IMG/VR virus record: IMGVR_UViG_3300050121_000302
Span: 1 to 21,584 of that record
DNA length: 21,584 bases
Strand: one strand, 5' to 3'
Source: a virus
A program made the position numbers and the translations under genes. Shown piece after piece: positions 962 through 20,491 of the stretch (position 1 is its first letter; each line of letters opens with the position of its first letter). Under the pieces are notes generated by a model that did not search any database, had not been told where the DNA came from, and saw only the letters and a program-made list of their open reading frames with translations.

Positions 962-970
962 GTGCGTTGA
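962..970 (+). promoter_or_regulatory. GTGCGTTGA element, copy 1 (before head module)
   Basis: First of five exact copies of the nonamer GTGCGTTGA. It lies in the 97-base gap 924-1020, the longest intergenic gap in the window, 50 nt before the start at 1021. The flanking pattern is YR before the core, shared with the other copies; here the base after the core is T rather than G. A -35-like TTGATC (967-972) with a poor -10 (GATTGT, 990-995) can be drawn, but the other copies have no matching -10, so a plain sigma-70 promoter is not convincing. The role as a late promoter or leader element is inferred from repetition and position. Confidence 0.6.
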
Positions 971-1020
971 TCGCGTAGCCCCTAGGAAAGATTGTCTCTC
1001 CAACGGAGCGACGATCATCC

Positions 1021-1257
1021 ATGCAGAGCAAGCCACAGGCGCCGCAACCTGACCCTGCGCTGACTGCGCAAACGCAGGCAGCTCAACAGCAACAGGTTCA
1101 ACAGATTCAGCAAGGGCTCTCTTCGCAGAGCCTCGATCTGTTGCGCCAGTTCGGGCAGTCCAGCGCGGCCAAAGCGTCGGGCATTGTAACCCCGTTCTCG
1201 GGCGCTGCCGGCGGATTTGCTACACCGATGGTGTCACCAGGTGGCTCGCTTAAATGA
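1021..1257 (+). CDS. Small Gln/Ala-rich phage protein before portal
   Basis: A 78-residue protein of unknown function. The N-terminal half is very rich in Gln, Ala and Pro (AAQQQQVQQIQQ at about residues 21-32) and probably helical. The C-terminal half is Gly/Ser/Ala-rich with no hydrophobic segment. A GGAG at 1005-1008 is the likely ribosome site, although its spacing of 12 is long. The stop overlaps the portal start (ATGA at 1254-1257), so translation is probably coupled. T7 also encodes small virion-assembly proteins just before its connector gene (6.7 and 7.3). This gene occupies that place, but I cannot show homology. Confidence 0.72.
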   Translation: MQSKPQAPQPDPALTAQTQAAQQQQVQQIQQGLSSQSLDLLRQFGQSSAAKASGIVTPFSGAAGGFATPMVSPGGSLK

Positions 1258-2918
1258 GCGCCGAGATCAGCCTAAAGCCGGCCGTCACAGATTTTAAAGA
1301 GATCTCTGAGGAGGCGTGCGATCGTCTGCATGAATGCCGCCGGCAGAAATTGCAGTTTGAGCGCCAGCTCCGCGAAGGCTATTTTTTCGCCGCGCCCAAT
1401 CGCGCTCGCAATGTGTTGTCGTCTGTCCCGACTTCAGAGACCAGGCCGCGCGACGAATCCGAATTGAACACGTCTTTCGTTTTTGAGCTGACGGCGGATT
1501 TCCCGACCGTCATGATGAATACCTTCATGCCTGAAGCGCAGCCGTGGGCCGTGCGCAAGGCCGGAATGCTGGTCCCCGCCGCATCGCGGCCAGCGGTCGA
1601 CAAGCAAGCCCAGGATGATGACAAGATCATTTTCCAGGCCATTGCCGCCTCGAACTTTTATCAGGCGTGCGCAATGGCATTCCGGCCCGATCTTGCGCTT
1701 GGCACAACTGCCCTTTGGATTGATGTTGGCAAATCCGGCAAGCCAATCAAATGCCAAGCTGTCCCAATCCGCGAGCTTGAGATCAACCTTGGGCCTGAAG
1801 GCGATGTCGACGATCGCTTCATTGTGCGGTGGACGCGCAACCGTCATGTTAAGAAGCTCACCAAGGGGATCGATCTTCCCCAAAAGTACGTCGATATTTG
1901 CAAGAAAGATCCTAATGCCAAGACGTGCATAATCTGGGGCTATTGGCGCGATTGGGATCAAGACGCTACGGAGACCTGGCATCACGTCGTCATGATCGAC
2001 AAGGAAGTCATTAAGCATGTGAAACTTGCGGGGCAAGGCTCATGCCCATTAGTCGTCTCGCGGTTTAATGCTTGTCCCGAGTGGGCCTGGGGCGAAGGCC
2101 CATTGATCCAGGCGCTTCCTGACATTCGGACCTATGATGGGATTAAAGACGCCAAGCTAAAAAACTTGGATCTCAGCATCAACCCGCCGATCGCGTGGCC
2201 CGACGATTCAATGATGAACGTCGAAGAGGGCATTGAGACCGGGATGGCCTATGCGGTGCGGCCCGGCTCCGAAGGCGCGATCAAGAACATTTATGAGCCA
2301 AACCCGCCAGATTCGGCAATCTACGATATGCAGGACATGCAACAGACATTGCGTCGGTTGTTCTTCCTGGATTGGCCGCAACAGTCCGGCGACACGCCTC
2401 CGACCGCTACGCAATGGCTCGATGAAATGACCATGGCGCAGCGGCGAATTGGCACGCCTGGGATCGGCTTTTGGGTGGAGCATTGCGGTGGCTCCTTCAT
2501 GCGGTTCGCCTATCTGCTGACGAAAGCCGGTCTCATCAAGCCGGCGGAAATCGATGGCAAGGGTATTGCGCTCGAGGCCTACAATCCAGCGCAGAAAGCT
2601 GCTGAGCAACAAGATGTGGCGCAGTTCACGCGGTTTGCGCAGATCGGTGGCGCCGTAGCACCCGAAGAGTTCAAGATCTACACGGATGGCAAGGCGACGC
2701 TCGACAACCTCGCGAAGAAACTTGGCGTCACGGAAATGTGGGCTGTGCGCCCGCAAGACCAAATCGCCGGGGCCATCGCGCAGATCCAGAAATTGCAGCA
2801 AGGGACGGCTCCGACCGCGCCGGCCGTTGGCGGTGCGCCTGGGGGGCCGCCCGCGCCGCCGGACCTCGGCGGCGCCGCTCCTGCGCCAACTCAGGTCCAA
2901 ATCAGGGGCAGGCTGTGA
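1254..2918 (+). CDS. Portal protein (T7 gp8-like head-tail connector)
   Basis: A 554-residue portal, close in length to the T7 connector (536 residues). Twelve copies form the ring at one vertex through which DNA is packaged and ejected and onto which the tail assembles. Family-like stretches include ELTADFPTVMMNTFMP, the WGEGPLIQALPDIR region around residues 280-293, where the clip and stem usually begin, and the later FFLDWPQ and WLDEMTMAQRR helices. The last 40 or so residues are a low-complexity Pro/Gly/Ala tail (APAVGGAPGGPPAPPD), probably disordered. The start overlaps the previous stop and the stop overlaps the next start (GTGA), placing it within one translationally coupled head operon. 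Confidence 0.9.
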   Translation: MSAEISLKPAVTDFKEISEEACDRLHECRRQKLQFERQLREGYFFAAPNRARNVLSSVPTSETRPRDESELNTSFVFELTADFPTVMMNTFMPEAQPWAVRKAGMLVPAASRPAVDKQAQDDDKIIFQAIAASNFYQACAMAFRPDLALGTTALWIDVGKSGKPIKCQAVPIRELEINLGPEGDVDDRFIVRWTRNRHVKKLTKGIDLPQKYVDICKKDPNAKTCIIWGYWRDWDQDATETWHHVVMIDKEVIKHVKLAGQGSCPLVVSRFNACPEWAWGEGPLIQALPDIRTYDGIKDAKLKNLDLSINPPIAWPDDSMMNVEEGIETGMAYAVRPGSEGAIKNIYEPNPPDSAIYDMQDMQQTLRRLFFLDWPQQSGDTPPTATQWLDEMTMAQRRIGTPGIGFWVEHCGGSFMRFAYLLTKAGLIKPAEIDGKGIALEAYNPAQKAAEQQDVAQFTRFAQIGGAVAPEEFKIYTDGKATLDNLAKKLGVTEMWAVRPQDQIAGAIAQIQKLQQGTAPTAPAVGGAPGGPPAPPDLGGAAPAPTQVQIRGRL

Positions 2919-3277
2919 AGGTTTTCAGCGCTGAAGAAGTGATCGCGCAGATCGCAATTCTCGGTAAACGCGAAGAGGCAATTTTCCTTCGCGATTGGTT
3001 ACGTCGTGAGGTCTCTTTGGTCTCTAGCGCGTCGGTTGAGTACGGTGCGTTGAGCCATCGTGAAGGGCGACGCAGTTTGGCAGCACAGATTTTAAACTTG
3101 CTGGAAGCCGAACTGAATGGACCCGATGACCAACGCCCCGCTAATCGCTCCGGAAGGATCGCCGCTAGTAAATCAAGTGGCGCCTGTCGTGTCCCCGTCG
3201 ATCCCATCGACGGATACGGGGACGGACCAAAACCCGAGCGCACAAAACGCCAGCGTAAGGCCCGAGTGGCTTCCTGA
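2915..3277 (+). CDS. Small helical protein overlapping the scaffold gene
   Basis: A 120-residue frame starting at GTG 2915, which overlaps the portal stop and has AGGGG at 2904-2908 with a spacing of 6. The first 68 or so residues (KVFSAEEVIAQ through AAQILNLLEAELN) look like a genuine compact helical protein. The rest, from about 3117, runs in a second frame over the first 161 bases of the scaffold gene and is basic and low in complexity (ERTKRQRKARVAS). The overlap is unusually long for this compact genome. Either the tail is tolerated read-on of a protein that once stopped near 3120, or the scaffold starts later than assigned. I do not recognise a named family; the position suggests a head-assembly accessory. 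Confidence 0.6.
   Translation: MKVFSAEEVIAQIAILGKREEAIFLRDWLRREVSLVSSASVEYGALSHREGRRSLAAQILNLLEAELNGPDDQRPANRSGRIAASKSSGACRVPVDPIDGYGDGPKPERTKRQRKARVAS
3045..3053 (+). promoter_or_regulatory. GTGCGTTGA element, copy 2 (before scaffold)
   Basis: This exact copy lies inside the small coding region that begins at 2915 and reads on the same strand, 63 nt before the scaffold start at 3117. The following bases are GCC, as in copy 5. T7 carries a late promoter (phi9) at the equivalent place before its scaffold gene. Since this copy is within coding sequence it is the least certain of the five, but the spacing to the next gene fits the rest. Confidence 0.5.
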
Positions 3278-3911
3278 GAAGTTTTGGGATGCGACGAAGA
3301 ACGAGGCCAAGGCCGACGACTTCAAATCGCATCTGAGCAAGCTCGAAGAGATCGGCGCCGCTGACGAAGCGCGCCGCGTCGGCCTTCCCGCAAAGCCCGA
3401 AGAATACAAAGCCACCTTGCCGGCAGATCTCGGCTTGCCGCCAGAATTCGCGATCAATGAACAAGATTCGCGTCTTCTAGAATTGCGCAAGATCGCCCAC
3501 GAAGACGGTCTCTCACAAAAGACGTTTGATCGCTTGGTTCGTCTCGACGCCATGCGTACGGCCAGCGAAGTCACCCGCGATGCTGACGTGCTGAAGCAAG
3601 GGCTCGATGTCCGCAACAAAGTACTCGGCGAAAATGGCGCGGCTCGCGTCGAAGAGCTGAGCAAATGGATCGAGGCGCGTGTTCCCGACGCGAAGATCAA
3701 TGAGCACGTCAAGAGCAACGTGATCCGGCCTGAAATGGTCCAATTCCTTGAGGGTGTCCGCAAAGAGCTGATCGGCCAGGGAGGGCAGCCGTTTGTGCAG
3801 TCCGGACGCGAGGCGCCGCGCGCCGATGGCCGCCCCGAAAACTTCACGTCGCTCCGTCCACACGATCAAATCCTCATCAACCGTCAGCTCGCGGCCGGGG
3901 GCCGTAAATAG
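3117..3911 (+). CDS. Capsid assembly scaffolding protein (T7 gp9-like)
   Basis: A 264-residue protein immediately before the major capsid gene. Scaffolds guide prohead assembly and leave before or during packaging. The N-terminus (residues 1-45) is Pro/Ser/Ala-rich and likely disordered. Then comes PEWLPEKFWD at residues 49-58, a segment typical of phage scaffold proteins, and a long charged, helix-prone body without cysteine. The C-terminus, from about LRPHDQILINRQLA, is a short basic helix of the kind scaffolds use to hold capsid protein. Start choice: ATG 3117, although ATG 3126 in the same frame is possible. The first 161 bases overlap the preceding frame. Confidence 0.8.
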   Translation: MDPMTNAPLIAPEGSPLVNQVAPVVSPSIPSTDTGTDQNPSAQNASVRPEWLPEKFWDATKNEAKADDFKSHLSKLEEIGAADEARRVGLPAKPEEYKATLPADLGLPPEFAINEQDSRLLELRKIAHEDGLSQKTFDRLVRLDAMRTASEVTRDADVLKQGLDVRNKVLGENGAARVEELSKWIEARVPDAKINEHVKSNVIRPEMVQFLEGVRKELIGQGGQPFVQSGREAPRADGRPENFTSLRPHDQILINRQLAAGGRK

Positions 3912-3922
3912 GAGATTGAACG

Positions 3923-4867
3923 ATGTCCTCCCCGCTTCTCAATCCGGTTATGACCCTTGTCGAATATTACAAGGGCATGGAAGAAAGCAACACCAACCGC
4001 CCCTACATCGAAATGTTCGCGAAGTCGTCGGACGTGATGCAGGCGATTCCGTTCGCGACTATGACGGGCGCGATTTACACTGGCTTCCGCCAGTCGGGTC
4101 TCCCGCAGAGCCTAGCCTTCCGCGGCATTAACGGGCCGTCGACCTCGGGCGCAGGCACGATCTCGCCTTACCAAGAGGCGTCCTATGTGATCGACCATGA
4201 CATTCCGCTCGATGTGGCGATCATCCGCCGCGCTGGCGACCGTCGCCGCGCCATGGAAGAGACCAATGGAATCGCCCGCGCTGGTGAACTGTGGATACAA
4301 ACCTTCCTGAAGGGCGATAATTCTATCACTCCGACCGCCTTCAATGGTCTGCTCGACAACTCCGCGCTGGTCACCGGCGCCCCAGTTGTCGGCGGCGCTC
4401 CGCTGTCTCTCTTTGCCCTTGATCAGGCGATCTGGAACACGAAGGGCTGCACCCACATTATCGCCGATTGGTCGCTTATGCCGCGCTTTATTCAGGCCGC
4501 GCGTAATACGCAGATTTCGGGTTTCGTCATTCAGTCCTGGCCCGACGTTGGCGCGCCGAAAATGACCTATGCGAATCGCCCAATCCTGTTCGGCTACGAA
4601 AAGGATCTGCACCCGACCATCCTTCCGTTCACGGAAGTTGCGCCGGCTGGCGGCGCTGCGGTCACGTCCTCGGTGTACACGGTGAACTTCTCCGAACAGG
4701 GCGTCCATGGCATCCAGCTTATTCCGCTGGAAGTCCGCGACATGGGCCTTCTGCCGGACGGTATCACCTATAACACTCATATCTCCTGGGATGTGGGTCT
4801 AGTCGATGATCATCAATTCAGCTTCACCCGCCTTGCGGGCATCACGAGCAAGGCGTTCACGGCGTAA
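3923..4867 (+). CDS. Major capsid protein
   Basis: A 314-residue protein with AGGAG 8 bases before ATG 3923, a strong ribosome site that fits the most abundant virion product. It follows the scaffold directly. The N-terminal arm (NPVMTLVEYYKGM, then PYIEMFAKSSDVMQAIPF) and later beta-rich segments (PILFGYEKDLHPTILPF, SVYTVNFSEQGVHGIQLI) fit an HK97-fold capsid subunit. The start resembles the capsid proteins of podoviruses that carry a separate cement protein more than it resembles T7 gp10. The assignment rests on position, length, ribosome site strength and general sequence style. There is one cysteine. The stop codon lies in the loop of a 6-bp hairpin (4858-4873). Confidence 0.85.
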   Translation: MSSPLLNPVMTLVEYYKGMEESNTNRPYIEMFAKSSDVMQAIPFATMTGAIYTGFRQSGLPQSLAFRGINGPSTSGAGTISPYQEASYVIDHDIPLDVAIIRRAGDRRRAMEETNGIARAGELWIQTFLKGDNSITPTAFNGLLDNSALVTGAPVVGGAPLSLFALDQAIWNTKGCTHIIADWSLMPRFIQAARNTQISGFVIQSWPDVGAPKMTYANRPILFGYEKDLHPTILPFTEVAPAGGAAVTSSVYTVNFSEQGVHGIQLIPLEVRDMGLLPDGITYNTHISWDVGLVDDHQFSFTRLAGITSKAFTA

Positions 4868-4873
4868 GCCGTG
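4858..4873 (+). other. Hairpin spanning the major capsid stop codon
   Basis: A perfect 6-bp stem, CACGGC with GCCGTG, closes a GTAA tetraloop of the GNRA type. The TAA stop codon (4865-4867) is in the loop. Two further G-U pairs can extend the stem. No T-run follows, so it is not a standard intrinsic terminator. It could stabilise the capsid mRNA 3' side or reduce read-on into the next gene. The structure is seen; its role is inferred. Confidence 0.4.
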
Positions 4874-4915
4874 GGAGCCTAAGCCGGGAAAGTCTAAAGC
4901 CCGAGAGGAACGGAA

Positions 4916-5401
4916 ATGTCTTATCCCTATGATCTAAAAACGGTGATGTCCGATGCCGCCGCAGCCTATGTGGTATCTGGCATCGGACAGGTTGGCGGCG
5001 CGAACGCGATCCTCGATATGGGTGGTCCTCAAACCCGCCCCGATCTTGGTCTCGTTGGCGGCCTCGCCCGCATCAATGCGACTGTCGTTATCGACGTTCT
5101 CGCGATCGCGGTGGCTGTCGGCGATCAGTATATTATCGCCGTCATGGGCTCGAACAGCCCGAACGGTGCGAACCCGGTCAACCTGGGCTCCCTGATCCTC
5201 GGCGCTGGCGCTCAGATCCCGAACGGAACGGCTGGCAGCGCGGAGACTGGCGCGGGTTCTGACAGCTCGCCTGGTCGTTTCGAGTTGCTATTTGCCTCTG
5301 AACAAGATGGCATCAACTATGAATTCGTCTACCTCTTTAACAAGATCCTCGCTGGCTCGATCCAGTATCGCGCCTCGATGTCTATCCTTCCCAACGAATA
5401 A
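4916..5401 (+). CDS. Probable capsid cement/decoration protein (Bbp16-like)
   Basis: A 161-residue protein after the capsid gene, with GAGAGGA upstream of ATG 4916. It has no cysteine and is rich in Gly, Ala, Ile and Val in short beta segments: AILDMGG, ARINATVVIDVLAI, DQYIIAVMGSN and RFELLFAS, ending in IQYRASMSILPNE. This pattern resembles the small jelly-roll cement proteins that follow the major capsid protein in Bordetella phage BPP-1 (Bbp16) and its relatives, which lock capsomers together on the outside of the shell. The call rests on remembered pattern and gene order. It could instead be another head decoration protein. The gene ends in tandem stops (TAATAA) followed by a hairpin. Confidence 0.6.
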   Translation: MSYPYDLKTVMSDAAAAYVVSGIGQVGGANAILDMGGPQTRPDLGLVGGLARINATVVIDVLAIAVAVGDQYIIAVMGSNSPNGANPVNLGSLILGAGAQIPNGTAGSAETGAGSDSSPGRFELLFASEQDGINYEFVYLFNKILAGSIQYRASMSILPNE

Positions 5402-5404
5402 TAA

Positions 5405-5424
5405 GGCGGCCCCTCGGGGCCGTC
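5405..5424 (+). terminator. Hairpin after cement gene, possible weak terminator
   Basis: GGCGGCCC pairs with GGGCCGTC (one G-U pair) across a CTCG loop, two bases after the tandem stops. The tract that follows is TCTCC rather than a run of T, so termination, if any, would be inefficient. It may serve mainly as a 3' stabilising stem. It lies between the abundant head proteins and the next small gene. Confidence 0.4.
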
Positions 5425-5459
5425 TCCTGGCCCTTTAGACCGTCTCGAGGAACTGACCG

Positions 5460-5723
5460 ATGGTTGAGAAAGTCACCGCCTATTACACCGCGCTGGGTGC
5501 GACCGAGACGGAAAAGTATTTTATGTTCCGGATCGACTACAACGACGCCAAAAAGGCCTTCCCGGCTGAGTGGTCGCTTGATGCCCCGAAAAAGGGAACG
5601 GTCGTCGTCGACAAGATTCCCGACGCCGGCCTTGCACCTTCGCCGGGCGTTAATCCCGCTCCGATCGTAGCGACCTCTCCTTCCATGGGGCTAATACCCC
5701 AGGCCGCCAAGGTCGCTGAATAA
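5460..5723 (+). CDS. Hypothetical small protein between head and tail modules
   Basis: An 87-residue protein with GAGG at 5447-5450 as a likely ribosome site for ATG 5460. The first half looks folded: an N-terminal TAYYTALGATETEKYFMFR segment, then an acidic KAFPAEW turn. The second half is Pro/Ala-rich and probably flexible. No signal peptide, membrane segment or recognised motif is visible. It lies between the probable cement gene and a strong terminator, so it belongs to the head transcript. A small structural or joining role is possible but not shown. Confidence 0.65.
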   Translation: MVEKVTAYYTALGATETEKYFMFRIDYNDAKKAFPAEWSLDAPKKGTVVVDKIPDAGLAPSPGVNPAPIVATSPSMGLIPQAAKVAE

Positions 5724-5748
5724 AGTCGACGCTGCTTTGAGTAGCACT

Positions 5749-5779
5749 CCCCGCGTCGCGCAAGTGGCGCGGGGTTTTT
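5749..5779 (+). terminator. Strong intrinsic terminator between head and tail modules
   Basis: An 11-bp stem (5749-5759 with 5764-5774, including two G-U pairs) closes a GCAA tetraloop, and five T follow at 5775-5779. The outer six pairs are all G-C. This is a textbook rho-independent terminator. It lies directly before the gp11-like gene, the same relative place as the T7 late terminator between genes 10 and 11. It would lower tail-gene transcription relative to the head genes. Confidence 0.85.
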
Positions 5780-5795
5780 CGTGAAAGGACCGGTG

Positions 5796-6455
5796 ATGGA
5801 AAATTATGACAAGCTGACCATCATCAATGACGCACTGCTAGCGACCGGAAACCGAACTGTCGTTTCTGACAATGGCTCGGCGGAATGGATCGCCAGCTCG
5901 CGCTTTTATGACCGCTGCTTGCCTGTCCTGCTCTATGAGCATAATTGGCCGTTTCAGACCGCGACCGTTGGGCTCGCGCGCAAAGGCTCGTCGGCATATC
6001 CTGGCTATTTGGATATCTATGCCAAGCCGCAAGACTGCCTGCACCTTGAGAATGTATGGCGGACCGATTTCGGGATTTTGATCCCTCAGTTTTCTGGCTT
6101 CAATGAAGACGGTATGCAGACCAGGCCGCCAGCACTTGATTACAAAATCATCGGTGACCAAATTCATTGTTGCGCACCGGAAGGCGCCACCGCGCTCTAT
6201 GTGCAATATCCGAATACGCCCAAAGCATGGCCTCCCGGCTTTGTTGAGACGCTTACGCGTCGGATCGAATCGTTCCTCTACCAAGGGCTGAACGAAGACT
6301 CGACCAGCGCTAAGGCAGTTGGAAGCGTGGCTGAAGATGAGCTTTCGAAGGCTCGGGCGAAGATCGATTCCGAAAGTCCGCGCCGCGTCGCGTTTCGCTC
6401 GCGCATTCAAGAGCGGCGCCGCACGCCTCGTGATGGATGGTGGTGGGGTCCGTAA
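5796..6455 (+). CDS. Tail adaptor / tubular protein A (T7 gp11-like)
   Basis: A 219-residue protein. ATG 5796 is chosen over an upstream in-frame GTG because AAAGGA lies 6 bases before it. Twelve such subunits join the portal to the nozzle in T7-type tails. Family-like features are the N-terminal YDKLTIINDALLATGN helix, SRFYDRCLPVLLYEHNWPF with the conserved Trp-Pro, then LARKG and a YPGYLDIYAKPQDCL strand region. The C-terminus has a helical RIESFLYQGLNEDS segment and a basic, Arg-rich end. T7 gp11 is 196 residues, so the length fits. The stop overlaps the next start by one base (TAATG), which suggests coupled translation with the nozzle. Confidence 0.87.
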   Translation: MENYDKLTIINDALLATGNRTVVSDNGSAEWIASSRFYDRCLPVLLYEHNWPFQTATVGLARKGSSAYPGYLDIYAKPQDCLHLENVWRTDFGILIPQFSGFNEDGMQTRPPALDYKIIGDQIHCCAPEGATALYVQYPNTPKAWPPGFVETLTRRIESFLYQGLNEDSTSAKAVGSVAEDELSKARAKIDSESPRRVAFRSRIQERRRTPRDGWWWGP

Positions 6456-8662: not shown

Positions 8663-8664
8663 TC

Positions 8665-9126
8665 ATGGCTGCTGCAGCAGCAGGCCCAGCCGGAGCCGCC
8701 CTTTCTCTCGCCTCGACTGGCCTCAGCGTCTTCGGCGCGATTCAGCAAGGCAACGCGAACGCCCAGGGCGCCGAGTATCAGGCGCAGCTAGCGGAGCGCG
8801 CCTCGCAATATGGGCAGATCAAGGCGGCGCAGACTTCAACTTTTATGCAGCGCAACCTTTCGACCACGCTCGACAATATTCAGGCCGTGCGTGCGTCTGG
8901 GAACATCGAGGGAAATAGTCCAACGGGCGAGGCGATCAGGAGCAACGTCAACACGACTGGACAGCAACAGATCACGCAAAAGGTCCAGAACATCGACGCG
9001 CAGTCGCAGCAAGATCAGGACGCCGCAGCCTTTTACACGCAAAGCGCCAACAATGCTCTGACGGGCGGTCTCCTGAGCGCGCTCGGTAAGGGCGCTAGCG
9101 GCCTCGCGGGGCTTATTCCAAAGTAG
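8665..9126 (+). CDS. Internal virion protein, T7 gp14-like ejection protein
   Basis: A 153-residue protein rich in Ala, Gln, Ser and Gly, with no cysteine. An Ala-rich hydrophobic N-terminal part (ALSLASTGLSVFGAIQQG) is followed by a long helical, Gln-rich core (GAEYQAQLAERASQY, FMQRNLSTTLDNIQAVRASG) and a Gly/Leu C-terminus. This is the usual look of gp14-type proteins (T7 gp14, 196 residues), which are ejected first and form the outer-membrane part of the DNA channel. The position right after the nozzle gene and before two very large proteins supports the call. Its start is two bases after the nozzle stop, so translation is likely coupled. Confidence 0.8.
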   Translation: MAAAAAGPAGAALSLASTGLSVFGAIQQGNANAQGAEYQAQLAERASQYGQIKAAQTSTFMQRNLSTTLDNIQAVRASGNIEGNSPTGEAIRSNVNTTGQQQITQKVQNIDAQSQQDQDAAAFYTQSANNALTGGLLSALGKGASGLAGLIPK

Positions 9127-9135
9127 GGTTTTCCA

Positions 9136-12264: not shown

Positions 12265-15200
12265 TGCCAGACATTGACCCAAGCCAAGCGCCGGACGCTG
12301 CGCCTGCTCTCCCGCCGTCGACGCTTCCGGCGCCGCGCGTTCCGAGCGGTGCGCCCGCGCCCGATCCATTCCAGCAAGGGCCTGCCACCGCTGACACAAT
12401 CAGCGCCGCCTTCCGGCAGGACAACCCGATTTCTTCGGTGCTCGATTCAATCGGCCAGATGCCTGGCAACGAGTATGATCCGACGCATAACCCGCTCGAT
12501 ACGCTGAAGGGGACGCCGCATGAGGGCGACGATCTTAGCATCTATGCCGGGTCGCCAAACGAGGGTTACACGCGGGCGCTGATGGCTCGGCTGGATCGGC
12601 AACGAACTGATCAGGAAACGCTCGCGCAGTCCGGCCACGCTGGCACGGTCGCTTCGCTCGCGGCCGGCATCCTCGATCCAACGCTGGCGATCCCGATCCT
12701 TGGCGAAGCGCATGAGGCCGGCGCTCTGGCGAACATCGGGCGCATGGCAGCGCTCGGAACGGCGCAAGGCGTCGCCTCCGAAGGGCTGATGCAGGAATCA
12801 CAAGTCGGCCGCACCTGGCAGGAAAGCGCCGGGAATATCGCCTCCGACACGATCATGATGGGCGTCCTCGGCGGCGCAATAGGCGCGCTGTCCAAGGGCG
12901 AGCGCGGGGCGATGGCGGGGGCGTTGGATGAAGTGCGACCGCGCGTCGACGGCACGACGGGAGAAATGGCTCCTCAGAACCCGATTGTACAGCGCAAGAT
13001 GGCGGATGGAAGCCTTGAGCCTGACGACCCCTTTGCCGATCGGCGGAAATCGGATGCGGAGGAAGAGGCCGCAACACGTCCAAGGATCGCCCTTCGCGAC
13101 CTATTGCAAAGCGGCAGTAGTGATGCAGCGTCGCCATTCATGCTACCGGATGGAAAGATAATCGCGACGGGCAATGACCATATGTCGGTTGCCGGGCCTC
13201 TCGAGGCGCGTGCGGCGAACTTCGTCCGGTTTCACTATTTCCCAGATTCCCTGAATGTGTCGATCGTCGACGGGCAGACGCCAACGCCCAAGCAGCTTTC
13301 TACGCTCGGGCAATTGATGGCTGCGAAAAACACCGATGGCGCGCGGCAAGGTATTATCGAGCTGAATGATTCGGCTGGCAATTCCCTGCAAAGCAAGACC
13401 GTCACTTCGCCTGAAGATCTGATTGACACCATTAAGGGATGGGGCGAACGGGGGAACCCGGCTCCAATCAACCGCCCGATCGGCCCGCAATCAACCTTGA
13501 TGCAGGCGGCCGGCGCGGCGGGGGCGGACACTCGCGAGCTAAACCCGATCGGCGCTTTGGGCCTCGAAAAAATTCCCGTCAGCCCGAACATGCGGATTTA
13601 TACGGGCGATAGCGCATCGGCGAAACAGGCCCTGCGCGATCTAGCGGAAACCGCGATCCGGTTCGAGCCCGATCAAGTCGCTCCGAATGGGCAGCCTCTC
13701 GAAAGCATCGTGCGCGTCCAGAAAAACCAATCGACGGTCGCGCTGCACGATGCTCTGGAAAGCAATTGGCTGGATCACTATTACGGATCGGACACGCATC
13801 CTAATGGGGCGACCGCTGCGCTTGGCCGGGAGGGCATCGGCGCTCCAACTACGGCAGACAAGCTGTCCTATTCTGACTTCAAAGATGCGGTCTACAACGC
13901 TGGAATCAGCGGCGATGTGCATCAAATCCCCGAAGTTCAAAAGGCGATGCAAGAGCTTCGCGCGCAAGTCATGGACCCGATCAAGGAGCTTGCGCAGAAC
14001 ACGAAGGGCCCGGACGGAAACCCGATGCTCTCCGAAGAGCTGGGTCCGCCAAAGGGCGCGCAAAGCTTTATGCCGATGATGCCCAAGAGAGACGCGATCA
14101 TTGCCAACTGGAACAAAACCAGAGGCATGTTTTCCGATTACATGGAAAGCGAGCAAACCGAAAAGGCCGCGGCGCAAGACCGCCTGAGCCAATTGCAGGA
14201 GCGCCACGAAGCGCTTGGCTCTCAGATCGGAAAGCTCGATGGCCGGCTAGACACGGCCACGGCGGCGCAACAGCAAACCGGGACGCGCCTTGATGAGCGC
14301 GGCATGGAAGCCCGCACGACGGAAGCGCGCGCCGGGACGCTACAGGACCGCGCAGGCGAAATCCGCTCGGGCATTAGCGAGCTAGAGGAGTTTGTCGGCA
14401 ACATGCGCGGGCAGCTCCGCGACCCCGCCTCGCAAGAGCGCCTCGATGACCTTGAGGGGCAGATCAGCCAGCTCCGCAAGCAATCCTCGCCGATGAGTGA
14501 GGCAGCTCTGAAGCAGACTGAACGGGAAGAAGTCAAGTCGGCTTTGACGGGCGATTTGCGGAAAGCGGCGGAAATCTTCGTCGGCAAGCGCAAGTCTCCC
14601 GTCGAGCCCGACATGCTGAAGTGGATGGCGAAGGAAGGCGGAATCGTCGACACGGGCGGCGATGTTAAGGCGATCCTTGGCGGCGGCGGGCCAAAGGGGA
14701 TCCTTGCTGACACGCGTCAGACGGCCCTTAGCGGGATGCATGATGTCGCGCGAACGGCCGACGATTGGGGAGAGCGCTTCTATGAAATGGCTCCATGGGC
14801 TTTTCCTGAAGGGCGCCCGAGCCCGAATGACGTTCGCGACATTATCGAGCAAGCTGCTCGCGGTCATGCTCCGGATTGGTTTCATGAGGTCCAGGGCAAC
14901 GGGGAGCGCGCCCTCAACAACCTTACTGACGAATTGGGGACGGTGGCAAATGAGCTGGGGGCCGATCCTAAGTCGCTCCGTGAAGTCGCCGAAATGCTCA
15001 ACGGTATGCGTGGGCGCGATCCGCTTATGCTGCAAAGGCTGCGGGATCGAGTTGATGCCGGGCATGATCTCGTAGGGGCGCAAGCCGATCTAGCGTCGCG
15101 CCAGCAAGGGCGGCAGGATCTTCGCGACCTGATCTCGCGCGCGATCGAGGATCGGGGCACGCAAGAGGGCGCGCTCAGCCGGGAAGGGGCCCGAGCCTCC

Positions 15201-17270
15201 GAAGCTCAGTCGGCCGCAAACCGGAACCAAGGGCGCGTTGGCCTGCTCTCCGATCGCCTGACGCGCCAGCAAACGATGCAAGATCTCCTCGAGGCCGCTC
15301 GCCAGAATGCGGAAGATGAGCGCATTTCGATCCGCGGAAAAATTGAAGATGAGATCCGCGCCTGGAAGGGCGACACAACGGCCGATGCCGTCTCAGTGCT
15401 GAAAGCTCGGGATGAAGCAGAGCGGGTTCGCGGCCTGAAGCAATCTGCCGGTGTCTATGAGGGCAAGGGCGAGCGCCTTACTTCAGCGGATAGCCCTGTC
15501 GACCGCGCTGTGCGTCAAATTATTAATTCGCATCAAGACCTGTCCAGGCCCGAGCTGGAAAGCCGTGCTGACGAATGGATCAACCGCTGGATCGGTTCGC
15601 CCGATGGCCGCTTGCCCTATGACGCCGGGAGCGGCGGCCCGAACATTGGATATACCGGCAGCGAAGGCCAGCAAGTGCGTGGCTCGCTGAACCAACGCAC
15701 GATGACTATCCCGGTGAAGCAACTCGCCGCGGCCGGCCTGATCCACACCGATGTAGAGCATGCTGTCGGCTCGATGATTCGGACGCTCGTCCCCGATATT
15801 CAGCTTACGGCGCGGTTCGGCGACGTGGACATGACGAACGCTTTTCGCAAGATCCGCGAAGAATATCAGGCCAAGATCGGCCCTGATACGACTGCGAAGG
15901 AAGCCGCCAAGATCATCGTGGCGCGGGATCGGGATCTGACTGACCTAGCGGCGGTGCGCGACCGGTTCCGCGGTGTCTATGGCTGGGACCCGAGCCCGCA
16001 GGCGCGCAAGTTCGGAAACGTGATCCGCGACGCTCAAAACCTCTCGGCGCTGTCATCGCTTGGAACGTCTGTGATCAACCGCTTGACCGATCTCGGGGCG
16101 AACGCCACCTTCCGCTATGCGTTTCAGGATGTCTTTAGCGATGTCTGGAAGCCGCTGTTTAGCGCCATGGCTGGCGATCCTGAGATCGCAAAGATCGCCA
16201 AGGCTCAATCCCGCGACATGGGCGTGGGCGTCGATGGCCTGCTGGGCCACATGCGCCAAAATCTCCATGACGTGAACGATCTGCATTCGCCCGGCAACCG
16301 CTTCTCGCGCGGCTTGGCGTGGGCAACGGACAAATCCATGCTGATCAATCTGCATGGTCCGTGGACGGATTGGATGAAGGCGATGAGCTGGAACGTCGCG
16401 CAAGGCGAGTTCGGCCGCGTCTCCAAGCGCATTGCTGACGCTCTCGATAAGGGCATTGATCCATCTGCGAAGGATCTAGCGCGCATGGCTGACGCCAACA
16501 TTTCGCCGCAGATGGCTAGCCGGATCTCGCAACAGTATGAGGCAAATCACACGCTGGTCAAAGGCGCGAAGTTCGCCAACACGTCGGATTGGACGGACAA
16601 AGAGGCCAAGACTGCGTTCGAAGCGGCGATGTCGCGTGAGGCAAATATCAACGTCGTCACGTCGGGGATCGGCGATAAGCCGCTATGGATGAGTTCTAAG
16701 ATCGGCGGCTTGATGGGGCAGTTTAAGGGCTTCGTGGCTGGCGCGCATGAAAAGATTTTGATCTCGAACATACAGCAGCGCGACGGGCGCGCGCTCCAGG
16801 GCGCGCTTGTTTCGATCGCCATGGGCATGATGTCGTATCGTATGTATGCGCTGGCTTCCGGGCAAGACGTGAGCCAAAACCCTGCCGATTGGGTCAAGGA
16901 GGGGATCACGCGCTCGGCGATGCCCGGCTGGCTGAATGAAGCAAATCAGCTCGCCTCCAAGGGGACGGGTGGTATGGTCGACTACGGCCGCCTGTTCGGC
17001 GCGACGATGCCTAATTCCCGGCGCCGGGATAACTCCCTGCTGTCAGACATCATGGGGCCGACCTACTCGCGCGTCGAGCAACTTACTGGCGCAGCCAGCC
17101 ATATCGTCTCGGGGAAGGCGTCGTCGGCCGACATTCATCAAGCCCGCATGGCGTTGCCGCTGCAAAATCTGATGGGCTTTCGGCGGCTGCTCGATGAGGT
17201 CGAGGATGGCGCGGCGAACGTGCTCGGCATGAAGCCGCGCCAGCGCAACGGTCCGCAGTGGCTTCCATAG
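12264..17270 (+). CDS. Giant internal virion protein (T7 gp16-like ejection protein)
   Basis: A 1668-residue protein, longer than T7 gp16 (1318) and cysteine-free. It begins with a Pro/Ala-rich tail. Residues about 130-215 are Gly/Ala hydrophobic and could insert in membrane. Residues about 283-400 form a distinct alpha/beta-looking segment (FMLPDGKIIATGNDH, then FVRFHYFPDS, TPTPKQLSTLGQLM) that I cannot name. Charged coiled-coil-like helices lie at about 625-755 and 935-1035. The C-terminal 300 or so residues include QFKGFVAGAHEKILIS and a hydrophobic VSIAMGMMSYRMYAL stretch. Position as third and largest ejection gene supports the role of inner-membrane/periplasmic channel for DNA entry. 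The stop codon TAG gives the first base of a GTGCGTTGA element. Confidence 0.83.
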   Translation: MPDIDPSQAPDAAPALPPSTLPAPRVPSGAPAPDPFQQGPATADTISAAFRQDNPISSVLDSIGQMPGNEYDPTHNPLDTLKGTPHEGDDLSIYAGSPNEGYTRALMARLDRQRTDQETLAQSGHAGTVASLAAGILDPTLAIPILGEAHEAGALANIGRMAALGTAQGVASEGLMQESQVGRTWQESAGNIASDTIMMGVLGGAIGALSKGERGAMAGALDEVRPRVDGTTGEMAPQNPIVQRKMADGSLEPDDPFADRRKSDAEEEAATRPRIALRDLLQSGSSDAASPFMLPDGKIIATGNDHMSVAGPLEARAANFVRFHYFPDSLNVSIVDGQTPTPKQLSTLGQLMAAKNTDGARQGIIELNDSAGNSLQSKTVTSPEDLIDTIKGWGERGNPAPINRPIGPQSTLMQAAGAAGADTRELNPIGALGLEKIPVSPNMRIYTGDSASAKQALRDLAETAIRFEPDQVAPNGQPLESIVRVQKNQSTVALHDALESNWLDHYYGSDTHPNGATAALGREGIGAPTTADKLSYSDFKDAVYNAGISGDVHQIPEVQKAMQELRAQVMDPIKELAQNTKGPDGNPMLSEELGPPKGAQSFMPMMPKRDAIIANWNKTRGMFSDYMESEQTEKAAAQDRLSQLQERHEALGSQIGKLDGRLDTATAAQQQTGTRLDERGMEARTTEARAGTLQDRAGEIRSGISELEEFVGNMRGQLRDPASQERLDDLEGQISQLRKQSSPMSEAALKQTEREEVKSALTGDLRKAAEIFVGKRKSPVEPDMLKWMAKEGGIVDTGGDVKAILGGGGPKGILADTRQTALSGMHDVARTADDWGERFYEMAPWAFPEGRPSPNDVRDIIEQAARGHAPDWFHEVQGNGERALNNLTDELGTVANELGADPKSLREVAEMLNGMRGRDPLMLQRLRDRVDAGHDLVGAQADLASRQQGRQDLRDLISRAIEDRGTQEGALSREGARASEAQSAANRNQGRVGLLSDRLTRQQTMQDLLEAARQNAEDERISIRGKIEDEIRAWKGDTTADAVSVLKARDEAERVRGLKQSAGVYEGKGERLTSADSPVDRAVRQIINSHQDLSRPELESRADEWINRWIGSPDGRLPYDAGSGGPNIGYTGSEGQQVRGSLNQRTMTIPVKQLAAAGLIHTDVEHAVGSMIRTLVPDIQLTARFGDVDMTNAFRKIREEYQAKIGPDTTAKEAAKIIVARDRDLTDLAAVRDRFRGVYGWDPSPQARKFGNVIRDAQNLSALSSLGTSVINRLTDLGANATFRYAFQDVFSDVWKPLFSAMAGDPEIAKIAKAQSRDMGVGVDGLLGHMRQNLHDVNDLHSPGNRFSRGLAWATDKSMLINLHGPWTDWMKAMSWNVAQGEFGRVSKRIADALDKGIDPSAKDLARMADANISPQMASRISQQYEANHTLVKGAKFANTSDWTDKEAKTAFEAAMSREANINVVTSGIGDKPLWMSSKIGGLMGQFKGFVAGAHEKILISNIQQRDGRALQGALVSIAMGMMSYRMYALASGQDVSQNPADWVKEGITRSAMPGWLNEANQLASKGTGGMVDYGRLFGATMPNSRRRDNSLLSDIMGPTYSRVEQLTGAASHIVSGKASSADIHQARMALPLQNLMGFRRLLDEVEDGAANVLGMKPRQRNGPQWLP

Positions 17271-17278
17271 TGCGTTGA
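17270..17278 (+). promoter_or_regulatory. GTGCGTTGA element, copy 3 (before fibre region)
   Basis: An exact copy that starts on the last base of the gp16-like stop codon, in the 66-base gap before the gene at 17337, with 58 nt to that start. The same 58-nt distance is seen for copy 4. The next bases are GCGGCG. A small AGAG/CTCT stem lies downstream, but it is weak. Confidence 0.6.
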
Positions 17279-17336
17279 GCGGCGTCAGAATTAGAGGAAA
17301 TCTCTCGTCAAGATAGCAACTTTGGCGAGGACGACG

Positions 17337-17870
17337 ATGATCGGTTTATCTCTCAATTGGCGCGACGTCGCCGTCCTTTTTGTGCTCGCCGCATCTCCGG
17401 TTATGGCGCAGGGTGTACCGCAGACGGTCCCGGTACAGGACGGATGGACAGCGCACCAGTCGCAGTATCTCGATCTGAGCGGATCTGGCAACGGCCCATT
17501 TATTCCGCTCATCGCCTGCATCAGCGCCAACGGCGCAGTAGGCTGTGGCGGCAGCTCGGCGCTGGGGAACCAGACTAAGGCAGCATCTCAGTCCGTGACA
17601 TCGGCTGGCGGCGCGGTGCTCACGACCACTCAAACTGCTGTCCCGACGACCGTTATATCTATCGCGCCCGTGGATGCGAACAAGGTCCATCGCATCGTGC
17701 AGAATTGCTCGAATGCGGGCGGCGCCAACTTGGCGATCGGCGTTTCGGCGGTGACGATGGCAACAGGCTACATGCTAGTTCCCGGCGCGAGCGTGGATAT
17801 GAGCACATTCACCGGTCAGATTTTCGCAATCGGTTCCGCAGCTGGGACCGCCTGCTATCTGGCGAACTGA
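17337..17870 (+). CDS. Signal-peptide-bearing beta-rich protein, possible fibre accessory
   Basis: A 177-residue protein. ATG 17337 is supported by GAGG at 17327-17330; an upstream in-frame TTG lacks a ribosome site. The first 24 residues look like a Sec signal peptide: a hydrophobic VAVLFVLAASP core after Arg9, with likely cleavage after VMA. An internal ATG at 17403 would give a protein without it but has no visible ribosome site. The mature part is Gly/Ser/Thr/Val-rich with four cysteines. It ends in a domain of the style HRIVQNCSN, then NLAIGVS, GYMLVPGASVDM and IFAIGSAAGTACYLA, common at the ends of phage tail-associated proteins. It may be a fibre or virion surface accessory; an exported lysis or surface-modifying role is the alternative. 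Confidence 0.7.
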   Translation: MIGLSLNWRDVAVLFVLAASPVMAQGVPQTVPVQDGWTAHQSQYLDLSGSGNGPFIPLIACISANGAVGCGGSSALGNQTKAASQSVTSAGGAVLTTTQTAVPTTVISIAPVDANKVHRIVQNCSNAGGANLAIGVSAVTMATGYMLVPGASVDMSTFTGQIFAIGSAAGTACYLAN

Positions 17871-17883
17871 TCTCGGCGCCGTA

Positions 17884-17892
17884 GTGCGTTGA
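17884..17892 (+). promoter_or_regulatory. GTGCGTTGA element, copy 4 (before tail fibre)
   Basis: An exact copy in the 80-base gap 17871-17950, 58 nt before the tail fibre start. The base before it is A and the next bases are GG. It stands just upstream of a strong hairpin (17907-17941). T7 has its phi17 promoter at the equivalent place before the fibre gene. Confidence 0.6.
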
Positions 17893-17906
17893 GGCGGCGG
17901 GTTCCG

Positions 17907-17941
17907 GCGCGCAAACAAAGAGTATCGAAGCTCTTGCGCGC
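17907..17941 (+). promoter_or_regulatory. Leader hairpin immediately before the tail fibre ribosome site
   Basis: GCGCGCA (17907-17913) plus AGAG (17919-17922) pair with CTCT (17931-17934) and TGCGCGC (17935-17941). This gives 11 pairs with a 5-nt bulge and an 8-nt loop. It ends two bases before GGGG (17943-17946), the likely ribosome site, and ten bases before ATG 17951. It could be an RNA processing or stability element or a translation control. No T-run follows, so it is not a standard terminator. Confidence 0.5.
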
Positions 17942-17950
17942 TGGGGTGCT

Positions 17951-19816
17951 ATGTCGAATTTCCGCTCTATGCTGGCCCTCGTGGCGCTCCTGGCATCATC
18001 AGCTGCCATCGCCGCGCCGCCGCCGCCAATCCCGCCGCTCGCCGACGCCGATCGCATTGAGACGTTTAACATCACGTCATCGACGCCATTGATCCAAGTC
18101 GGCTTCCCGGTCTTTGGCGATTGCACGGACATCGCCGTCCAGGTCAATGGCGTCACCTTGCCATTGCTACCAGGTGGCCTCTGGAACTGCGCCTCGGAGA
18201 GCGGGATGCAGATCAGCCTGCTACCGCTCCCGATCACAGATATGGTGGTCAACTTCACGCCAGCGCTCACGACAGGCGCTCTGACCATCAGTGGCTCATG
18301 GCATCCGCGCGATCTCGTGCAGCCCACGGCGCCCGGCATCAACCGGCGCGAATTTAACCAAACCGTCTCGACGCTGATCGCCAGCAATCGCGAGCTCTTT
18401 CAGGATATCAACGGCATTCTGTCCGGTACCGTGGCGTTGGGCAATGGAATTGTTCTGCCTGGGGTCATTGGACAGATAGCCACCTATACGGGGCCGGGTA
18501 ATACGGTAGGCCCGGCTGCGAATGCCCTTGTTCCAGGGACGCTGGGGGTTGGCGGCGGTGCCTCGCTGAACAGCATTACGATGACGGCGGAGCCTAACCA
18601 AATTTTCTCGTGGGCGGGGGCTCCCACGGCAGCCGGCGACTTACGGCAGTTGCCGGGCTCGCTTGCGACAACGCCGGAGATCGGACAGGTCTCTATCATT
18701 AATGCGATGGCTGGCGGCGGTAATCCGACTGCTTTCTTCAAGATGAACCAGGGCTATGTTTGTACGACCGAACCTGGATCTGCAAGCTGTTGGAATATCA
18801 ACCCCGTCATTGACCTGCAATTCGCCTCCGGTCTCGTCGGCGGGGTCGGCGTCGAAGCAGATGTCATCAATTTAAACCATGATTACCTGTCTCCGTCTGA
18901 TAATCCCCTTGCCGTCGCATATTACGCCACTGGCGCGCCAACGAACCAGTTTTATTCGGATGCGGCTTTTATCGTCACGGGTAGTGGCCCCACATGGACA
19001 GACGGTATTCAGGGGTCTCAATTCAGCCACGCTGCTGCTACGGTGACCTTTACGCTCGCGAGCCCCGGCATCGTCAACCAGACGGCGCACGGTTACATTG
19101 CGGGGCAGGCTGTCGTTTTCACGACGACGGGCGCGCTCCCTACAGGGCTGACGGCGGGGCTGCGGTTCTATGTGGTCGCGGCCGGACTTGGAACTAACGC
19201 CTTTGAGGTGTCCGCGACGCCGGGCGGGGCTGCGGTAGCCTTTACCGGCTCGCAATCCGGCGTGCAGACCTCGGCTGGCGCTAACGTATTCATGCGGTCG
19301 TTCATAAACGACACGTCAAATAGCCCAGTCTCGTTTCTCATCTCTGGAACGCATGACATTCTCTTTAATGGCGCGGGCGCCACTTGCGTTCAGTTCTGCA
19401 TCGTAACGCCCAATTTTACTGTTGATGGACAGGGCGACGTAGCAGGGTTTGTCATCACAGCGCACAATAGCTTCGCGCTGAACAATCCGTTGTTCAACGC
19501 CAACACGCCATCGGTCGCCAGCGGGTTCGGAACTGGCGGAGCCGTGGCCCCGAACAACAATGGAACAGCGACCTTCCGCATCATCATAGGCACCGGCGGA
19601 ACGGCCAGCGGCGGCATAGTTACGATGCCTCAGGTCACGAATGGCTGGAGCTGTCAGGCCACTGACATCACGACCAATTCGGTGACCGTCTTCGCTACAA
19701 AGCAGCTCGGACCTGGGACGCCGACGAGTGTCACTCTTGGAAATCTGAACACATCTGGCGCTGCGGCTGCGTGGGTTGCTGGCGACGTTCTTGTCGTGAA
19801 CTGCGACGCATATTGA
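17951..19816 (+). CDS. Tail fibre / receptor-binding protein with N-terminal signal peptide
   Basis: A 621-residue protein. Residues 1-21 look like a Sec signal peptide (hydrophobic MLALVALLASSAAIA, likely cleaved before APPPP). No usable start lies just after it, so the leader seems to be part of the gene. Residues about 33-150 resemble the T7 gp17 N-terminal tail-attachment domain: a strand DADRIETFNI, later HPRDLVQ, then helix NRREFNQTVSTLIASNRELFQDI. Around residues 365-440 is a beta module, NQTAHGYIAGQAVVF with LPTGLTAG and FEVSATPGG, common in phage tail proteins. The C-terminal 100 or so residues (GFGTGG, NGWSCQA, AAAWVAGDVL, NCDAY) look like a compact tip domain. The eight cysteines are unusual for a cytoplasmically assembled fibre. 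Confidence 0.78.
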   Translation: MSNFRSMLALVALLASSAAIAAPPPPIPPLADADRIETFNITSSTPLIQVGFPVFGDCTDIAVQVNGVTLPLLPGGLWNCASESGMQISLLPLPITDMVVNFTPALTTGALTISGSWHPRDLVQPTAPGINRREFNQTVSTLIASNRELFQDINGILSGTVALGNGIVLPGVIGQIATYTGPGNTVGPAANALVPGTLGVGGGASLNSITMTAEPNQIFSWAGAPTAAGDLRQLPGSLATTPEIGQVSIINAMAGGGNPTAFFKMNQGYVCTTEPGSASCWNINPVIDLQFASGLVGGVGVEADVINLNHDYLSPSDNPLAVAYYATGAPTNQFYSDAAFIVTGSGPTWTDGIQGSQFSHAAATVTFTLASPGIVNQTAHGYIAGQAVVFTTTGALPTGLTAGLRFYVVAAGLGTNAFEVSATPGGAAVAFTGSQSGVQTSAGANVFMRSFINDTSNSPVSFLISGTHDILFNGAGATCVQFCIVTPNFTVDGQGDVAGFVITAHNSFALNNPLFNANTPSVASGFGTGGAVAPNNNGTATFRIIIGTGGTASGGIVTMPQVTNGWSCQATDITTNSVTVFATKQLGPGTPTSVTLGNLNTSGAAAAWVAGDVLVVNCDAY

Positions 19817-19823
19817 GGGCAAC

Positions 19824-20111
19824 ATGAAAAACTGGCTTGTACTTGGAATCTTTATCTTGGCTTCGTCTTCCGCTCGCGCCGACGATGTGGAAGAGAGTTT
19901 TGTGATCTGCCAACAGCACCTTACCCCAGCGGACGGTCAAGGCATTAATCATAAGACCTATCGGGCGGGCTGGGAGCATTGCTCCATCATCGCCGTCGAG
20001 ATGAGCAAGCGTGATCAAGAAATCAGACGCGCCGCAGAGGCGAACGATCCCGATCTCAAGCGGACCAGAGAATTGTCCCGGAAGCTTCTTCCGGGGCCGC
20101 TGAAGCCATAG
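19824..20111 (+). CDS. Small exported protein of unknown function
   Basis: A 95-residue protein with GAGGG just before ATG 19824. A clear signal peptide covers about residues 1-19 (KNWLVLGIFILASSSARA), leaving a mature protein of about 75 residues. That part has two cysteines (VICQQHL, EHCSII), which could form one disulfide, and a charged C-terminal helix (EMSKRDQEIRRAAEAND). I do not recognise a family. It follows the fibre gene by 7 bases and precedes another signal-peptide gene, so a periplasmic role in lysis, superinfection or fibre maturation is conceivable, but nothing shows which. Confidence 0.65.
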   Translation: MKNWLVLGIFILASSSARADDVEESFVICQQHLTPADGQGINHKTYRAGWEHCSIIAVEMSKRDQEIRRAAEANDPDLKRTRELSRKLLPGPLKP

Positions 20112-20122
20112 GAGGCATAGCC

Positions 20123-20419
20123 ATGAAATGCACCGCCCATACAGTCGCACTCCTCGCATGCCTCATGCTGGCCTCGGCGCCCGCGCTGGCGCAATCTGAC
20201 TCCCCGCCCAATGATCCCGCTCCGGCGCCAGCGACCGACGTTCCTGCTCCGCGTCCTGTGGCTGATCCAAATGCCCCGATCACCCTGACTCTTTCCGAGA
20301 TCCAAATTGTGGTCGATTCGGCGATCGCTAAGGATCGGGCGGAATTTGCCGTGCAGCGCGCGCAATCAACCTATCGCAAGATTCAGGAGCAAGCTGTTCA
20401 CAAAGCCGCTTCCCCTTGA
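20123..20419 (+). CDS. Small exported Pro-rich protein, possible lysis accessory
   Basis: A 98-residue protein with a full AGGAGG at 20110-20115, spaced 7 from ATG 20123, one of the best ribosome sites in the window. A signal peptide covers about residues 1-23, with cleavage expected after ALA. The mature protein begins with a 30-residue Pro/Ala/Asp-rich stretch and ends with a helix (EIQIVVDSAIAKDRAEFAVQR). Outer-membrane spanins are often short and Pro-rich and lie beside endolysins, so a spanin-like role is possible. However, the Cys in LLAC at residue 13 is a poor lipobox with a short hydrophobic run before it, and no partner i-spanin is seen. Confidence 0.65.
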   Translation: MKCTAHTVALLACLMLASAPALAQSDSPPNDPAPAPATDVPAPRPVADPNAPITLTLSEIQIVVDSAIAKDRAEFAVQRAQSTYRKIQEQAVHKAASP

Positions 20420-20431
20420 CCTATCCACGCG

Positions 20432-20440
20432 GTGCGTTGA
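20432..20440 (+). promoter_or_regulatory. GTGCGTTGA element, copy 5 (before endolysin)
   Basis: An exact copy in the 68-base gap 20420-20487, 47 nt before the endolysin TTG start, followed by GCC as in copy 2. It would let the endolysin and the gene after it be transcribed or regulated apart from the fibre transcript. Confidence 0.6.
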
Positions 20441-20462
20441 GCCTCAAGGCCGCATAAGCGAT

Positions 20463-20491
20463 TCAAGGGATGCAAGAGGAGCATCCCTTGA
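20463..20491 (+). promoter_or_regulatory. Hairpin enclosing the endolysin ribosome site and start codon
   Basis: A perfect inverted repeat: TCAAGGGATGC (20463-20473) pairs with GCATCCCTTGA (20481-20491), 11 bp, across a 7-nt loop, AAGAGGA (20474-20480). The loop is the Shine-Dalgarno sequence, and the TTG start codon (20488-20490) is in the 3' arm. In the folded RNA the start would be hidden, so endolysin translation is probably held low or regulated. No T-run follows. Confidence 0.75.

Follow-up and report, generated by a model that had tools for sequence, protein, structure and literature searches.

A conserved two-part element before late genes of alphaproteobacterial phages: a probable family of activator-dependent promoters

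The virus record IMGVR_UViG_3300050121_000302 comprises a 21.6 kb fragment (21,584 nt, hereafter the window), which is all that is present of its genome and which carries genes for terminase (in part), portal, scaffold, capsid, tail tubular, internal virion, fibre and endolysin proteins. Five exact copies of the 9-mer GTGCGTTGA, hereafter the box, are located on its plus strand and none on its minus strand (Table 1). Together with a second, shorter element at a fixed distance, the box recurs before orthologous genes in many related phages. The box is here proposed to be the upstream element of late promoters, which would be served by a phage helix-turn-helix (HTH) activator together with the sigma factor and RNA polymerase of the host, and to this model as a whole we assign a probability of roughly 0.7. 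Judged from sequence comparison, it is very probable that the sites form a real and conserved family of late promoters, and a dependence of these promoters on an activator acting with the host RNA polymerase appears likely.

Five boxes and their downstream partner in the window

All five boxes precede late genes, as an earlier note on this DNA had described, and its box-to-start distances of 50, 63, 58, 58 and 47 nt were confirmed. The last of these values requires TTG 20488 as start of the endolysin gene, as the distance to ATG 20470 is only 29 nt. Since the Shine-Dalgarno sequence AAGAGGAG precedes the TTG, this codon is probably the actual start. A stem-loop, CAAGGGATGC...GCATCCCTTG, spans positions 20470-20500. 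The placement of four copies in intergenic gaps, also stated in the earlier note, had to be corrected, as the 17270 copy includes the final base of the preceding stop codon, and the one at 3045 is located within a small open reading frame (ORF).

Table 1. Predicted promoter elements and genes in the window (positions are those of the window).
Feature	Position	Strand	Remarks
Box GTGCGTTGA, candidate activator site	962..970	+	exact match; upstream of head operon leader gene (ATG 1021)
-10-like GATTGT	990..995	+	fixed offset; predicted +1 at 1002 (A)
Head operon first gene	1021..1257	+	conserved small protein, cluster 5; ATG 1021
Head-tail adaptor (portal)	1254..2918	+	phrog_332, E=2e-48
Box GTGCGTTGA, candidate activator site	3045..3053	+	exact match; before scaffold, within small upstream ORF
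-10-like CAGTTT	3073..3078	+	fixed offset; predicted +1 at 3085 (A)
Scaffold	3117..3911	+	assigned from its position; conserved throughout the large relatives; ATG 3117
Major capsid protein	3923..4867	+	phrog_212, E=5e-30
Box GTGCGTTGA, candidate activator site	17270..17278	+	exact match; before 17337-17870 gene
-10-like AAATCT	17298..17303	+	fixed offset; predicted +1 at 17310 (A)
Gene downstream of 17270 box	17337-17870	+	
Box GTGCGTTGA, candidate activator site	17884..17892	+	exact match; before fibre-like gene
-10-like CAAACA	17912..17917	+	A-11 retained, no T-7; predicted +1 at 17924 (A)
Fibre-like gene	17951-19816	+	
Box GTGCGTTGA, candidate activator site	20432..20440	+	exact match; before endolysin gene
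-10-like GATTCA	20460..20465	+	A-11 retained, no T-7; predicted +1 at 20472 (G)
Endolysin	20488..21021	+	phrog_181, E=4e-23; TTG 20488 preferred over ATG 20470

The rarity of GTGCGTTGA by chance, put at about 0.08 copies per strand in the earlier note, holds with Markov models, under which 0.03-0.05 copies per strand are expected. The count of five is nevertheless weak evidence by itself, because in Markov models of this GC-rich 21.6 kb sequence some 9-mer usually reaches at least five copies. It is the location of the copies, and not their number, which is exceptional: all five fall within the zones at a distance of 28-110 nt from a following start, which add up to 1476 nt (uncorrected Poisson 3e-14), and GTGCGTTGA is top-ranked among all 8- and 9-mers in the pre-start zone of the window.

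The statement that no consistent -10 box follows turned out to be wrong. A hexamer of the form cAnnnT follows, its first base lying exactly 28 nt downstream of the first base of the box; when the five hexamers of the window are aligned on the 9-mer, position 2 is an A in all five and position 6 a T in three. In a training set of 49 non-redundant sites, aligned in the same way, A was found at index 29 in 36 and T at index 33 in 37 sites, with no conservation upstream of the 9-mer. These two positions are the sole further strongly conserved ones, both in the training set and in an independent set of 104 sites from loci that were not used to define box or pattern. The A...T pair stands at offset 29 in 47 of the 104 independent sites, compared with at most 12 at any other offset. 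The simplest reading is that both positions represent A-11 and T-7 of a degenerate -10 element (cAnnnT), which a 17-bp spacer separates from the upstream element, as in promoters of the sigma70 type. The conservation comes in two parts, 8-9 bp and then the A/T 20 nt later, and not as a single contiguous site of about 20 bp at the start point.

With the T of the -10 element at -7, the predicted +1 corresponds to index 40. It is exactly at this index that ATG is commonest (18 of 82 independent and 10 of 77 training sites). A Shine-Dalgarno-like sequence was found at 2 of 42 sites with ATG at 38-42, compared to 36 of 81 sites with more distant starts (Fisher 3e-6). As many start codons in relatives coincide with the predicted +1 and have no Shine-Dalgarno sequence before them, the late mRNAs made from these sites look like leaderless ones. 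Leaderless mRNAs are known in Alphaproteobacteria, with 171 of them in Sinorhizobium meliloti, every one AUG-initiated (PMC3616915). The five genes in the window are of the leadered kind, with an A at index 40 in four of them.

Conservation and concerted variation in relatives

Relatives of the window were collected via searches with capsid, portal and tail proteins, and include prophages of Microvirga, Bradyrhizobium, Ruegeria and other Alphaproteobacteria; a query with the 1668-amino-acid internal virion protein gave no matches. The earlier note had made its proposal dependent on conservation before orthologous genes, and indeed the box precedes the head operon leader, scaffold, tail tubular A and fibre/lysis genes in dozens of alphaproteobacterial phages and prophages. 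The site orthologous to the 962 box, for example, is present in G005, G008, G009, G016 and G019-G022 and in variant form in G002, G003, G004, G012 and G014. In Mwe-JY08, deposited as a Microcystis phage, the coding strand carries six exact copies and the other strand none. L029 (PP395640.1), deposited as a Microcystis phage, has GapR-like, S24 repressor and integrase genes, and these genes as well as its closest relatives are alphaproteobacterial, which renders the host label doubtful.

In the independent loci, 105 copies of the core GTGCGTTG lie on the coding strand and 7 on the opposite one, whereas 279 anagram 8-mers have a median ratio of 0.93. When words upstream of genes were ranked de novo, the box came first in the window and most analysed relatives, or else one variant stood in its place. 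Single box-like words on the opposite strand (L029:12492, G020:4717 and G021:11899, all on the minus strand) face away from TerS and the late region, and no clear -10 was found at the usual distance from them. Of the 12 matches of the two-part pattern in the Microvirga genome (6.9 Mb), 7 lie on a single strand in a region of about 35 kb around the prophage; near the prophages of Bradyrhizobium sp. Arg816 and Bradyrhizobium sp. 141 the respective fractions are 3 of 7 and only 1 of 11. As genome matches concentrate at the prophage, the pattern is a property of the phages and not of the host. In the open literature searched, GTGCGTTGA is not described in a phage context.

The small ORF around the 3045 box (window about 2915-3120, GALSHREGRRSLAAQI...) is conserved, precedes the scaffold gene and holds the predicted promoter within its coding sequence. 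The position of this box is conserved in most relatives. A coding constraint in this ORF was considered as source of the box conservation, but it applies to one class of sites only, and there the encoded residues follow the box, with Leu changing to Ser or Val in relatives with a different box, and not the reverse. Moreover, the signal survives removal of these sites: after the pre-scaffold coding-region sites were dropped, the A...T pair was kept in 29 of 82 independent sites, against a background of 3.6% from anagrams (binomial 2e-21). A minimal ORF, GTG-CGT-TGA, acting as regulatory minigene was ruled out, as variants destroy it and no Shine-Dalgarno sequence precedes it.

Relatives without GTGCGTTGA hold, at the orthologous positions, one genome-wide variant per phage. 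These are GTGCGTCG in G002 and mostly in G003, GTGCGGTG in G004, the Microvirga prophage, L086 and L100, and GGGCGTTG in G012/G013. An unguided 8-mer search at the -10 offset yielded GTGCATTG in two Ruegeria prophages (8 versus 0 copies by strand, 5 with a -10), and this variant also precedes the scaffold gene in four other Rhodobacterales prophages. The Rhodobacterales prophages L073-L076, L079 and L084 have GTGCATTG before the scaffold gene along with a homologue of the HTH gene in or adjoining the prophage, so that the system extends to another order. In several variants the TTG of a sigma70 -35 element is gone, with TCG or GTG in its place throughout whole phages, while the spacing to the -10 is unchanged. 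The box, at -40 to -33, overlaps the place of the -35 element as a phage-specific sequence, and in the phages with these variants no TTGAC-like -35 is kept. That it changes in concert within a phage, with some variants destroying the TTG, points to a dedicated reader.

These variants also bear on the possibility that host sigma70 (or a heat-shock sigma factor) alone recognizes the sites, with TTGA being an ordinary -35 and GTGCG being incidental or a UP-like extension. TTGA, the 17-bp spacer and A-11/T-7 would fit such a geometry, and the sigma70 -10 of a related alphaproteobacterium is poorly conserved (PMC3616915). However, GTGC is as invariant as TTG, the change of TTG to TCG or GTG affects whole phage groups with the spacing kept, and the pattern is concentrated in the prophage and not in the chromosome, all of which renders this explanation unlikely.

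The candidate reader of the box

A divergent phage-encoded sigma factor reading both boxes would account for two elements at fixed spacing and for phage-specific variants of one of them. In 19 relatives, the search for a sigma-like gene, suggested in the earlier note, gave only inconsistent matches to sigma70 region 4, all of them below the family cut-off. As the -10 retains the A-11/T-7 pattern of sigma70, with only the upstream box varying, and the universal HTH protein described below is not large enough to contain sigma regions 2 and 4, such a factor is likewise improbable.

The earlier note had offered a promoter class for a phage RNA polymerase or an activator, or a shared mRNA leader element, as interpretations. 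Of these, a late promoter class is strongly supported and an activator is favoured. An RNA element in shared leaders, or an antitermination site of the Q/put type, would agree with boxes at 30-70 nt before starts and with hairpins visible near some starts, but the partner element at constant spacing and the start codons at the predicted +1 put the box upstream of the transcript. Furthermore, the distance from box to gene varies while that from box to -10 is constant, and antitermination usually needs one or a few sites, compared to about 5-7 per genome here; this possibility is thus very unlikely. Hairpins before the ATG, seen by eye at several sites, were dropped as leader elements, since with the +1 at index 40 much of the hairpin would be upstream of the transcript. 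Promoters for a single-subunit phage RNA polymerase in the style of T7, which late operons with T7-like virion genes might have suggested, can practically be dismissed given the two-part architecture with -10 spacing and the lack of PF00940 matches in all 19 large relatives (T7 positive control E=1e-109).

For the activator, the HTH protein is the best candidate because of position, universality and fold. Besides terminase and virion genes, its family is the only one found in every large relative (12 of 12). The protein has 130-190 amino acids with an XRE-like domain and a basic helical tail, and its gene lies directly before the terminase genes. Of 30 further records, 23 likewise contain the gene, and every Rhodobacterales host that was checked has it within or adjoining the prophage region. 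The match to PF01381 (HTH_3) has E=1e-4, slightly below the curated cut-off, and was accepted as an XRE/HTH fold. A structure model built with nine relatives reached a mean predicted local distance difference test (pLDDT) score of 83 and replaced a poor alignment-free model (pLDDT 62). With Foldseek, its N-terminal domain matched HipB and the controller (C) proteins of restriction-modification (R-M) systems (prob 1.0, E about 5e-3), and the nearest solved sequences include C.BclI, C.AhdI and C.Esp1396I. We lean slightly towards this protein being the late activator that would bind the box.

In the proposed mechanism, the core box, GTGCGTTG[A/C], would occupy roughly -40 to -33 and substitute for the -35 element, with the degenerate -10 (cAnnnT) following at sigma70-family spacing and transcription being predicted to begin 7 nt after its last T. 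Given a poor -10 and box forms that lack TTG, the promoter should be silent with host RNA polymerase alone. The phage activator, most likely the small XRE/HTH protein with its basic tail, would bind the box and contact host sigma/RNA polymerase, and the holoenzyme recruited in this way would read the -10. By this means, the dispersed head operon, scaffold, tail, fibre and lysis genes could be switched on jointly.

Several observations weigh against this model. Two of the five window sites have no T-7, and about half of the independent sites are without the exact -10 pair, some of which may be variants with a 16 or 18 bp spacer or chance words. Due to kinship among the phages, the site counts are not fully independent. 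The HTH gene does not lie within the 21.6 kb fragment, and the recognition helix shows no clean co-variation with the box: phages with GTGCGGTG share SQ...GYxxK[IL]E in this helix, but JY08 and G016 carry similar residues along with GTGCGTTG. Another reader, such as a TerS-like protein or a host factor, could take the place of the HTH protein.

Relation to known systems

The late (class III) promoters of T7 are likewise repeated coding-strand elements before T7-like virion operons of one genome. They are, however, 23-bp sites for the phage RNA polymerase, whereas here no such polymerase was found and two short boxes stand at -35/-10 spacing. In T4 middle promoters (MotA box) and in lambda CII-dependent promoters, an activator site replaces or overlaps the -35 element and is combined with a host sigma70 -10. 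The sites described here share this combination and differ in sequence, in the XRE type of the candidate activator, in their use for late genes and in the many predicted leaderless starts. The XRE/HTH fold is common to the candidate and the C proteins of R-M systems, some of which activate from near -35. In contrast to the symmetric or repeated C boxes, the box is a single asymmetric 8-9-mer, and the candidate has an additional basic helical tail. A similar setting is known from the gene transfer agent of Caulobacter, in which the phage-derived regulator GafY contacts RpoD and the holoenzyme is recruited to virion genes (PMC11150451). That system has one main promoter with a GafY site at about -120 and IHF, and GafZ acts in antitermination (PMC11150451), unlike the many small promoters with a box at -40 seen here.

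By the tests made, the late-promoter system is not a member of the T4 MotA, lambda CII, R-M C or GafY/GafZ systems; the promoter set is new as a family, and its kind is already known. It probably represents a two-part late-gene switch common to a large group of viruses that infect alphaproteobacteria of soil and sea and have been studied little, with a small phage DNA-binding protein as reader. There is about an even chance that it amounts to an undescribed late-transcription system of T7-virion-like temperate phages of Hyphomicrobiales and Rhodobacterales, comprising a monomer-like XRE activator, an asymmetric box which replaces the -35 element and drifts jointly with the activator, and systematic expression of tail genes from leaderless mRNAs whose AUG is the start.

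For a phage group that is widespread and has hardly any transcription data, the pattern offers a sequence rule by which operons, start sites and late promoters can be located, and it names one regulator as candidate. The concerted variation of the box over many phages provides a natural data set on the joint change of a regulator and its dispersed sites. The class of sites with the start codon at +1 predicts that tail genes of these phages depend on leaderless translation. In the window, the tail tubular A gene has no box, and a strong intrinsic terminator (11-bp stem, TTTTT; 5749-5774, plus strand) lies immediately 5′ of it; at this gene, many relatives have a box with the start codon at +1.

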